A DNA stretch of 64,000 nt, from contig PGXV01000001.1 of the NCBI GenBank assembly GCA_002839315.1, forward strand, positions 372,001 to 436,000. The letters run 5' to 3'. The notes under the pieces are model-generated. The model had not been told where the DNA came from. It made no database searches and saw only the letters and a program-made list of their open reading frames with translations. Below are positions 22,436 through 32,271 of the stretch, one piece after another. Source of the DNA: Spirochaetae bacterium HGW-Spirochaetae-3. GTDB taxonomy: Bacteria; Spirochaetota; Spirochaetia; Treponematales; UBA12059. The first letter of the stretch is position 1. Every line of letters starts with the position of its first letter. The translations under genes were made by a program, and so were the position numbers.

Positions 22436-24501
22436 AGAAAATACTCGCGACCTTGTTCATGCTCGCCGCGATAGCCTCCGCGAACGCGCAGTTCGCCTAC
22501 AAGATACGATCGCCGCTCGCCGCTGAGTCGTTTCGCACGGGCGTGGAAGCGTATGGAAGGGGCCGCTACGCGGAGGCGCTGTCTCAATTCGAGCGCGCGC
22601 TCTCTAGCGAGAACGCCGATCCCCTCTGCCTCTATTGGCTGGGCAAGTCGTACTTCAGGCTAGGAGTCACGAGCGCGGCCTTCGACCGATGGAGCGAGGC
22701 GCTCGCAGCGGCCGGGTCGTCCCCGTTCATCGAGAGCCGGCTGGAGCTGGCCGGCGCTTCCGCCGATCCGAGGGGGCTCGAGCCGCCGGACCGCTATGTC
22801 CGCGTATCCGAGCTGAACGGCAGGAAGGACAGGCTCGACCTGTTCTTACGCCCCTCCTGGGTAGAGCCGTTACCCGACGGCTCGGTTATCATCGTATCGC
22901 ACGGCACCGACGCGCTACTCGTCGTCGACGCCAACGCGCGTATCGTCTCTACCATTAACGCCGGCTCGATCGGCTTCGACCGCCCCTTCGCGTGCGCCAG
23001 GCTCGATGACGGTACGTTGTTCGTTACCGAGTTCCAGTCCGACAGGGTAACGAGACTGTCGCCGGATGGACGCGTGCTCGGATATTCAGGCGACTCGTCC
23101 GGTCCCGGCCGACTGTCCGGCCCACAGTATATCGCCGCCGATGGCGACGGTTTCGTCTACGTCGGCGACGTCGGATTTTCACGCGTCGTCAAGTACGCGA
23201 GAGACGGCACTATGGTGCTGTCGTTCGGGACGCGTAGCGCCGTATTCGACGGATTACGCATGCCGACGGGGATCGCGACTATCGGGGACAGAGTCTATGT
23301 CGCCGACGCCGCGCTCAAGGCTATCTTCGTCTTCGACGCGTACGGCAATTTCGTCTCCAGGCTTCAGACCGTCACGTTGCAGCGACCGGAAGGCATGCGG
23401 GCGGTCCGCGACGGCAAGCTTCTCGTGGCCGACGGGGCGCGGGTGCTGCTCATCGATACCGAGACCGGCGCGGCGACCGAGCTGTACCGATCCGAAAGGA
23501 AGAAGCCGTACGTCGTTTCAGCTGCTTTCGACGCAAACGACGAACTTCTCGTTGCCGATTTCGACGCCTCGGAGATCGCATACCTTTCAGACCCGGCGTC
23601 GCGCTTCGCAGGCTTGTCGGTAGAGCTCGGACGCGTCTATTCCGACCAATTCCCGCGCGTCAGCTTCGACGTACGCGTCAAGGACCGATACGGCAGGCCT
23701 ATAACGGGGTTGGGATCGCCTAATTTCTACGTTTCCGAGACCGTCGTCAGCAAGGAACGACGCGTCGAGGGGGATATTCCCGTCGACTATCTCGCCTCCT
23801 CTATAAGGCCGGCTTCCGCGTTCTCGTTCGAAGGCGCCCTTGACGCTTCGGGCAGCATCGATATGACGTTCCTGCTGGAAGGATCGACCGCGGTAGCGGC
23901 CCGAAGGCTCGAGGCCCGCGACGCCGCGGTCTCGATTCTAGCGTCACTCGGAAACGACGCGAGGGCAAGGCTCGTAGTCGCCGGCAGAACCGCCCAGCCG
24001 CCGTCCGGAGCCTCCGTCGGCGCTATAAGCGACGCGATACTCAACGCGGTCCCCTCCGACGCGTGGCGTTTCGACTCGGGGCTTAGGCTCGCCGCCGGCT
24101 CTCTGTTCGATTCCTCGGGGAGGCGCGCGCTCGTCTATATCGGTACCGGGTCGGTCAATGAACTATACCTTGACGGACCGTCGCTATCCGAGCTCTCGTC
24201 GATGCTCGCTAACAACGGCATAGCCCTGTACGCGGTAATCCTCGGCAAAACAGCGCCCTCGCCCGCGCTCTCGTATCTCGTAGCGGCGTCCGGGGGATCG
24301 ATCTACGCATCCGACCGGCCGGAGGGCCTGTCGGAGATCACGACGAGGATTCGTTCGGCGCAAACGGGGCAGTACAGGCTGTCATACGTCTCGTCGGCGA
24401 ACGACGGCTTCGGGAGGGCCTACCTGCCGTTCGGCGTTGAGGTGTACCTGCGCGATCGTTCCGGCAAGGACGAAAGCGGATTCTTTGCGCCGCTTCGCTA
24501 G
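22432..24501 (+). CDS. Exported TPR, NHL-propeller and VWA-like protein
   Basis: The 689-residue protein starts at ATG 22432 with a signal peptide ending ASANAQ. After it come one or two TPR units (VEAYGRGRYAEALSQFERAL, CLYWLGKSYFRLGVTSAAF). An NHL-type beta-propeller follows at about 125-410 with repeats such as GPQYIAADGDGFVYVGDVG and MPTGIATIGDRVYVADA. The C-terminal region from about 460 resembles a von Willebrand A fold (MTFLLEGSTAV, GRRALVYIGTGS, NNGIALYAVILG) but lacks the usual DxSxS metal site. Probably a periplasmic or surface binding protein. Confidence 0.75.
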   Translation: MKKILATLFMLAAIASANAQFAYKIRSPLAAESFRTGVEAYGRGRYAEALSQFERALSSENADPLCLYWLGKSYFRLGVTSAAFDRWSEALAAAGSSPFIESRLELAGASADPRGLEPPDRYVRVSELNGRKDRLDLFLRPSWVEPLPDGSVIIVSHGTDALLVVDANARIVSTINAGSIGFDRPFACARLDDGTLFVTEFQSDRVTRLSPDGRVLGYSGDSSGPGRLSGPQYIAADGDGFVYVGDVGFSRVVKYARDGTMVLSFGTRSAVFDGLRMPTGIATIGDRVYVADAALKAIFVFDAYGNFVSRLQTVTLQRPEGMRAVRDGKLLVADGARVLLIDTETGAATELYRSERKKPYVVSAAFDANDELLVADFDASEIAYLSDPASRFAGLSVELGRVYSDQFPRVSFDVRVKDRYGRPITGLGSPNFYVSETVVSKERRVEGDIPVDYLASSIRPASAFSFEGALDASGSIDMTFLLEGSTAVAARRLEARDAAVSILASLGNDARARLVVAGRTAQPPSGASVGAISDAILNAVPSDAWRFDSGLRLAAGSLFDSSGRRALVYIGTGSVNELYLDGPSLSELSSMLANNGIALYAVILGKTAPSPALSYLVAASGGSIYASDRPEGLSEITTRIRSAQTGQYRLSYVSSANDGFGRAYLPFGVEVYLRDRSGKDESGFFAPLR

Positions 24502-24525
24502 GTCGTATAAAAAACAAGTCCGCGC

Positions 24526-24554
24526 TTGACTCGATCACCCGGTTTCGATATAGT
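24526..24554 (+). promoter_or_regulatory. Promoter of tRNA-Thr (TTGACT-N17-TATAGT)
   Basis: Near-consensus boxes at 24526-24531 and 24549-24554 with ideal spacing lie 14 bases before the tRNA, so the gene is expected to be well transcribed despite its mismatches. Confidence 0.7.
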
Positions 24555-24568
24555 GGCCCTCGTTCCAC

Positions 24569-24641
24569 GCCATCTTAGCTCAGTTGGCAGAGCGCGTGAC
24601 TTGTAATCTCGAGGTCCCCGGTTCGATTCCGGGAGATGCCT
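24569..24641 (+). tRNA. tRNA-Thr (anticodon TGT) with two stem mismatches
   Basis: The sequence folds as a tRNA with D stem GCTC/GAGC, anticodon loop CTTGTAA (anticodon TGT, 24602-24604) and a perfect T arm CCCGG-TTCGATT-CCGGG. Two pairs are broken. The acceptor GCCATCT/AGATGCC has C opposite C at the second pair, and the anticodon stem CGTGA/TCTCG has T opposite T in the middle. CCA is not encoded. It is still most likely tRNA-Thr, but it may be decaying. Confidence 0.75.
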
Positions 24642-24643
24642 TC

Positions 24644-24668
24644 GAAGGTTCAAATCCTTCTCTCTCCA
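24644..24668 (+). pseudogene. Orphan 3' end of a second tRNA
   Basis: Two bases after tRNA-Thr lies a perfect T arm (GAAGG-TTCAAAT-CCTTC), then TCTCTCC and A, exactly what the T arm, 3' acceptor strand and discriminator of another tRNA would look like. The matching 5' strand GGAGAGA and the rest of the cloverleaf are absent. It is a remnant left by deletion or recombination between neighbouring tRNA genes, or by a past integration. Confidence 0.6.
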
Positions 24669-24672
24669 TTCT

Positions 24673-24698
24673 TAAGGACCGCCGTATGGCGGTCCTTA
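24673..24698 (+). terminator. Intrinsic terminator after the tRNA pair
   Basis: TAAGGACCGCC and GGCGGTCCTTA form an 11-pair stem with loop GTAT, followed by TTTGTTT. It closes the tRNA transcript just before the next gene at 24718. Confidence 0.8.
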
Positions 24699-24717
24699 TT
24701 TGTTTACGAGGTATAGT

Positions 24718-25239
24718 ATGGATGCTCCGTTCTGGAGTGATGGCCTGTATTTCGAATGCGCCAGATGCTCCGCGTGCTGCAGGCACGAGCCCGGCTTCGT
24801 ATTCCTGTCCACATTCGATCTACGCAGGCTATTCACGCATAGCGCCCTTGCCTTCCGCGAATTTGTCGATACATTGTTAAGGACAGTAGACATCGGCACC
24901 GGCAACGCGATAAGCCTTAGGGAAAAGTCGAATAATGACTGTATACTATGGAACGGTAACGGATGCTCGGCCTACGAGGCGCGTCCCGTACAATGCGCGA
25001 CGTACCCGTTCTGGCAGGGAGTCATCGATACTCCCGAAGACTGGAATCGCGAATCTCTGGACTGTCCAGGAATAGGAAGGGGCCCTTTGGTTACGGCCGA
25101 AGCCATCGGCGATCGCCTGTGGCGAAGGCGTGCCTATCCGCCCCTCATCATCCCATACGATGTCGCATTGGAGTCAATCGATGAAGATACGCTTCTGGGG
25201 CGCTCGGGGATCGCTTCCGACACCCTTAACGCCCGATAA
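24718..25239 (+). CDS. YkgJ-family cysteine-cluster protein
   Basis: The 173-residue protein has the cysteine pattern of the YkgJ/UPF0153 family: CARCSACC at 14-21, a middle Cys, then CSAYEARPVQCATYPFW and a later CPG. The cysteines are thought to bind a metal ion or iron-sulphur cluster; the function is unknown. GAGG lies six bases before ATG 24718, which is preferred over an ATG six codons upstream near the terminator. It overlaps the next gene by 59 bases in another frame, an unusually long overlap for this genome. Confidence 0.85.
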   Translation: MDAPFWSDGLYFECARCSACCRHEPGFVFLSTFDLRRLFTHSALAFREFVDTLLRTVDIGTGNAISLREKSNNDCILWNGNGCSAYEARPVQCATYPFWQGVIDTPEDWNRESLDCPGIGRGPLVTAEAIGDRLWRRRAYPPLIIPYDVALESIDEDTLLGRSGIASDTLNAR

Positions 25240-31864: not shown

Positions 31865-32257
31865 AGGGACGAACCGGGCCGCCGTCGCCGAGGCTTGCCT
31901 CGGCGGAGGAAAGTCCGGGCTCGAAAGGACGCGACGCCGGCTAACGGCCGGGCGTACGGCTGGCGACGGCCGTACGACAGAAAGCGCAACAGAAAGCGAA
32001 CCGCCTGCGCCGAAAGGCGCGGGTAAGGGTGAAAAGGTGGGGTAAGAGCCCACCGCGTTCGCGGCGACGCGAACGGCACGGCAAGCCTCGTCGCGAGCAA
32101 GGCCGAACAGCGGAGGCGCGGTTCGCGCTCCGTCTCCACCGCGAGGTGGAGACGGTACTCCGCGGGTAGGCCGCGAAAGCGGAAGAGCGATCTTCCGCAA
32201 AGATGGATGGCGGCCGCCGCGAAAGCGGTACAGAACCCGGCTTATAGGTTCGTCCCT
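31865..32257 (+). ncRNA. rnpB: RNase P RNA, bacterial type A
   Basis: Catalytic RNA that removes 5' leaders from tRNA precursors. The P1 ends pair perfectly: AGGGACGAACC (31865-31875) with GGTTCGTCCCT (32247-32257), followed by TTTT. Conserved elements are present in order: GAGGAAAGTCCGGGCTC (P4 5' side), ACAGAAAGC, the GGGTAAGGGTGAAAAGGTG and GGTAAGAGCCCACCGC core, and ACAGAACCCGGCTTA near the 3' end. It is about 393 bases long. A long open frame on the opposite strand is only a consequence of GC-rich structured RNA. Confidence 0.97.
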
Positions 32258-32271
32258 TTTCATTGCCTTAA

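Follow-up and report, generated by a model that had tools for sequence, protein, structure and literature searches.

A tRNA-Thr gene followed by the 3' end of a tRNA-Tyr gene: a probable tandem deletion in a spirochaete draft genome

How does the 3' end of one tRNA come to lie directly behind another tRNA gene? The question is raised by a locus in Spirochaetae bacterium HGW-Spirochaetae-3, within a stretch of 64,000 nucleotides analysed here as a whole (the window). An earlier note on this DNA read the arrangement as the scar of a deletion between adjacent tRNA genes or of an integration event, with the surviving tRNA possibly decaying. Here we compare the locus with its counterparts in related genomes, search the window's own genome for the missing gene and weigh the ways in which such a junction could have arisen.

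Results

The tRNA at the locus was described in the earlier note as having anticodon TGT, a C-C pair in the acceptor and a T-T pair in the anticodon stem, and ARAGORN, Rfam and the cmscan alignment bear this out. The alignment places the two non-standard pairs at C2(24570)-C71(24639) and, in the anticodon stem, at T(24597)-T(24609). With 58.8 bits against an Rfam gathering score of 29, the tRNA-Thr(TGT) lies above the tRNA family cut-off. Intact tRNA-Thr genes from 10 relatives (10 of 19 relative loci scored) reached 58.9-68.6 bits; the gene in the window is thus still a recognisable tRNA, its score at the low end and not apart from those of the relatives. Folded as RNA, neither the 73-base nor the 100-base stretch formed a cloverleaf, and their z values of -0.05 and -1.39 are no better than shuffles, so that no conclusion is drawn from the folding.

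Two bases past the discriminator T (24641) of this tRNA stands the perfect T arm that had been noted, GAAGG-TTCAAAT-CCTTC, followed directly by TCTCTCC A, the acceptor strand of a different tRNA (together 24644-24668), and no tRNA 5' half lies upstream of them at the locus. When positions 24500-24720 were used as a query, the part from ~139 to 170 matched the 3' end of the relatives' tRNA-Tyr at 94-100% in many short rows, and a covariance model of the relatives' tRNA-Tyr matched the scar weakly (27.2 bits, E 7e-4). Because of these two matches we consider that the orphan end is not a chance resemblance and that it represents the 3' end of a tRNA-Tyr(GTA). The bracketing signals were also recovered (table 1): the promoter-like site is the sole one found (shuffle mean 0.2), while for terminators the search gave 3 sites, the hairpin included (shuffle mean 0.5). 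Apart from the scar, the locus is an ordinary tRNA unit. Elsewhere in the window, positions 31866-32260 hold an ordinary class A RNase P RNA (263.8 bits).

Table 1. Features of the former Thr-Tyr unit, in window coordinates
Feature	Position	Strand	Evidence
Sigma-70-like promoter, TTGACT-17-TATAGT	24526..24554	+	10 of 12; 10 aligned relatives share TTGAC and TATAGT
tRNA-Thr(TGT)	24569..24641	+	Called by both ARAGORN and Rfam
Putative deletion junction, ATG, at both breakpoints in L002	24636..24638	+	Comparison with the closest relative, L002
tRNA-Tyr(GTA) remnant: variable-region end, complete T arm (24644-24660), acceptor 3' strand TCTCTCC (24661-24667), A73 (24668)	24639..24668	+	Match to the 3' end of relatives' tRNA-Tyr
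Intrinsic-terminator-like hairpin, 11 pairs	24673..24698	+	Same hairpin after tRNA-Tyr in L002, L005 and L006

The same query was searched against 39 genomes (the window's own and 38 relatives) and found matches in all 39, some of them just weak and to other tRNAs; the best 20 loci, comprising the window and 19 relative loci, were compared. ARAGORN identified a tRNA-Thr(TGT) followed by a tRNA-Tyr(GTA), both intact, in 18 of these 19 best-matching relative loci, and the remaining one (L004, genome G007) is cut by a contig end that falls inside the tRNA-Thr. Two same-genus genomes, G001 and G002 (79 and 87% complete), gave weak matches alone and are uninformative on the tandem. Aligned with 10 relatives (11 sequences in all), the window shows a single clean gap, which starts at the end of tRNA-Thr and extends to the tRNA-Tyr variable region. 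A complete tRNA that combines acceptor GGAGAGA with the orphan's T arm, which the earlier note suggested looking for, is present in relatives; it was not found in the window's own genome. One relative locus near a contig end (L011, G008:C163) carries the tRNA-Thr start on both strands as an inverted fold-back, probably an assembly artefact.

Relative to the best match, L002 (genome G004), 83 bp are missing from the window. The missing length is 70-97 bp against 16 other intact loci (the 98 bp computed for L012 counts an additional base of its tRNA-Thr) and rises to 218 bp for L014, whose spacer is longer. In L002 the trinucleotide ATG stands just before both breakpoints, in the contexts ATGGCT and ATGCCT. 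This 3-base match is weak: among hypothetical deletions in the L002 unit, 223 of the 4525 that span 60-109 bp have at least 3 matching bases, as do 9 of the 95 of the same length, so that microhomology at the breakpoints is suggestive only.

The comparison separates the two non-standard pairs. The T-T pair is present in all 19 relative loci; it therefore belongs to this tRNA-Thr and is no sign of decay. At the 3' end of tRNA-Thr the relatives read AGATGGC and the window AGATGCC, which marks the C-C pair at 2-71 as new, a by-product of the deletion junction with its C derived from tRNA-Tyr. Of the suggestion that the tRNA is decaying, only this one change survives, and it reflects the junction and not a general decay.

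On either side of the unit the sequence stays colinear with L002, L005 and L006, at 71-81% (8 loci compared). Together with the intact tandem of the relatives, this gives good support to the first of the two origins proposed earlier, a deletion that joined neighbouring tRNA genes. The second origin, in which the tRNA gene served a mobile element as attachment site and so acquired an additional tRNA 3' end, draws on the position of a T arm and acceptor strand directly past a tRNA, and tRNA 3' ends are common attachment sites. However, the extra end is that of tRNA-Tyr, the normal neighbour, and not of tRNA-Thr. The five neighbouring proteins scanned (a TPR protein, an NHL-repeat protein, a CxxCxxCC-domain protein, a metallo-beta-lactamase-fold protein and a YceG-like protein) gave no integrase match. 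Compared with the relatives there is no inserted DNA or mobile element at the locus; the same genes run on in the flanks, and DNA has been lost rather than gained. With no same-tRNA end duplication, inserted DNA or integrase, and with the tandem intact in relatives, we reject an integration scar as very improbable.

The scar appears to be rare. A search of 390 of the order's genomes, themselves part of a larger group, with the pattern CTTGTAATN{15,45}CTTCGAAGGTTC recovered a single genome, the window's own (reversed control, 0). The intact spacing, N{98,128}, was found in 59 of the 390 (reversed control, 2), among them all 15 same-family genomes outside the genus; the count is a lower bound given that the intact tandems of G005 and G031 were missed. 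A scan of genome contigs, which may omit records of the window's own or very near genomes, returned 11 matching stretches, compared with ~14 expected by chance at equal base frequencies. We attribute these to chance, as ARAGORN called no tRNA-Thr in any of the 11 and in 10 of them no tRNA whatsoever; the eleventh (L073) holds Leu and Pro tRNAs alone, away from the match. Among the literature matches listed, mostly on organelle genomes, no earlier report of such a scar was found, and one may still exist in print.

The window's own assembly, rated 98.28% complete, gave 43 tRNA matches, of which ARAGORN names 42 and none as Tyr; the 43rd is an odd tRNA-like element with no ARAGORN call and no GTA seen at the anticodon place. 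A DNA search of this genome with the tRNA-Tyr of L002 returned the scar alone, other pieces having E above 2. A covariance model built from 18 tRNA-Tyr reached at best 61.9 bits there, at a tRNA-Ser, compared with 113-114 bits, one gene each, in four same-genus genomes with the tandem; the model found no tRNA-Tyr in the other three same-genus genomes (79, 87 and 64% complete). The gene for tyrosyl-tRNA synthetase, tyrS, is intact. Genes for tRNA-Ile(GAT), tRNA-Ala(TGC) and tRNA-Ser(GGA) are likewise absent from the assembly, and 16S and 5S rRNA gave no match, although of 14 control genomes these searches likewise failed in 5 and 3, respectively. Because these other expected tRNAs and rRNAs are missing too, the absence of tRNA-Tyr from the assembly is weak evidence of its absence from the cell. 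Two readings are left: a tRNA-Tyr located in DNA missing from the assembly, or a junction that is itself an artefact or a minority variant.

Two further observations were made outside the window, in the same genome. One contig ends just past a Ser(TGA)-Ser(GCT)-Arg(GCG) tRNA cluster (G000:C14:208911-209218, L055), and the missing Ser(GGA) tRNA may lie in the gap beyond that end. The tRNA-like element mentioned above (G000:C5:225163-225260, minus strand; L060:101-198 and L110) scores 50.5 bits with the Rfam tRNA model and has acceptor, D and T arms, with a long extra hairpin replacing the anticodon loop (fold z -5.8). Its surroundings are AT-rich and include two resolvase-domain genes; a weak match to ABC-3C and one to DUF3732 lie close by. 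The element had no match in a phage collection and none in viral contigs by one exact pattern.

Discussion

It is close to certain that the sequence as given represents a deletion form of a Thr-Tyr tandem, and the deletion was most likely present in the sampled DNA. We favour, with a probability of roughly 0.6, the explanation that ~83 bp were deleted from an ancestral unit consisting of promoter, tRNA-Thr(TGT), short spacer, tRNA-Tyr(GTA) and terminator. The deletion would have begun in the 3' acceptor strand of tRNA-Thr and ended in the tRNA-Tyr variable region, with slippage or end joining at the 3-base ATG match as the probable mechanism; it would have removed the 5' part of tRNA-Tyr and put C in place of G71 in tRNA-Thr. 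The tRNA-Thr would still be made from the same promoter with C-C at 2-71, and a living cell with the deletion allele would have to obtain its tRNA-Tyr from DNA absent from the assembly.

The altered pair may have a cost. One published account counts both G1-C72 and C2-G71 among the bacterial Thr identity elements (PMC9976931), and the full acceptor-pair set with C2-G71 is not found in the window's tRNA-Thr, the sole tRNA-Thr(TGT) found in the assembly. Since C2-G71 is one of these elements and the pair that bacterial ThrRS reads at this place, reduced charging is a reasonable inference, and the tRNA with C-C at 2-71 is probably charged less well.

Against the deletion reading stands its consequence, namely that it would remove the only tRNA-Tyr gene and damage the only tRNA-Thr(TGT) found, with no replacement in the assembly; an error or a minority variant is therefore a serious possibility. 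Under this alternative the living population carries the intact tandem, and the junction was made by a polymerase jump over tRNA hairpins or an assembly error, or belongs to a rare variant picked by the assembler. A tRNA-Tyr is essential, and no other copy was found in an assembly of this estimated completeness. The draft also has gaps, as the absent rRNA matches and tRNAs attest (the rRNA searches with their missed controls), and the G007 contig of a relative likewise ends inside this tRNA-Thr. On the other side, the breakpoints share just 3 bases as judged from L002, probably too few to mislead a k-mer assembler, and the window contains no N and lies on a contig of 525 kb. We think an artefact or rare variant somewhat unlikely as the source of the junction.

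Returning to a real deletion, one version of it would have the ancestral tRNA-Tyr truly lost from the locus and supplied from outside the assembled chromosome (by a plasmid, a phage or a relocated copy) or put together from pieces, with ACA codons read by a tRNA-Thr lacking the C2-G71 identity pair. We regard this combination as improbable. A functional fused or split arrangement, in which joining in trans unites the Tyr 3' half with a 5' half from another locus or the trailer serves some function of its own, would fit the intact Tyr 3' end and its retention in a unit with promoter and terminator. A separate 5' half was nevertheless sought in the incomplete assembly and not found, the DNA query returning nothing beyond the scar below an E of 2 and the Tyr covariance model finding no tRNA-Tyr; furthermore, none of the other genomes searched shows the scar. 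Such an arrangement is accordingly difficult to credit.

If the ~83-bp deletion is real, it would be a recent loss of a tRNA gene that is single-copy in the nearest relatives, with a second tRNA harmed as well, and would illustrate how cells can live through such a loss. If it is not, the locus is a useful warning that an essential gene may contain a false or minority junction even in a draft genome rated 98% complete.

The closest counterpart of the locus is the Thr(TGT)-Tyr(GTA) tandem of its relatives, with which it shares gene order, promoter and the tRNA-Thr body including the T-T pair (19 of 19 loci), the terminator hairpin being common to the window and the closest relatives; it differs in lacking the ~83 bp that comprise the tRNA-Thr end, the spacer and the 5' part of tRNA-Tyr. 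The thrU-tyrU-glyT-thrT-tufB operon of E. coli is a known system close to this tandem. As a mutation, the event resembles short-microhomology deletions in its direct 3-base breakpoint match without insertion; it stands out by striking what is apparently the sole tRNA-Tyr gene, a target that one would not expect in a living cell.
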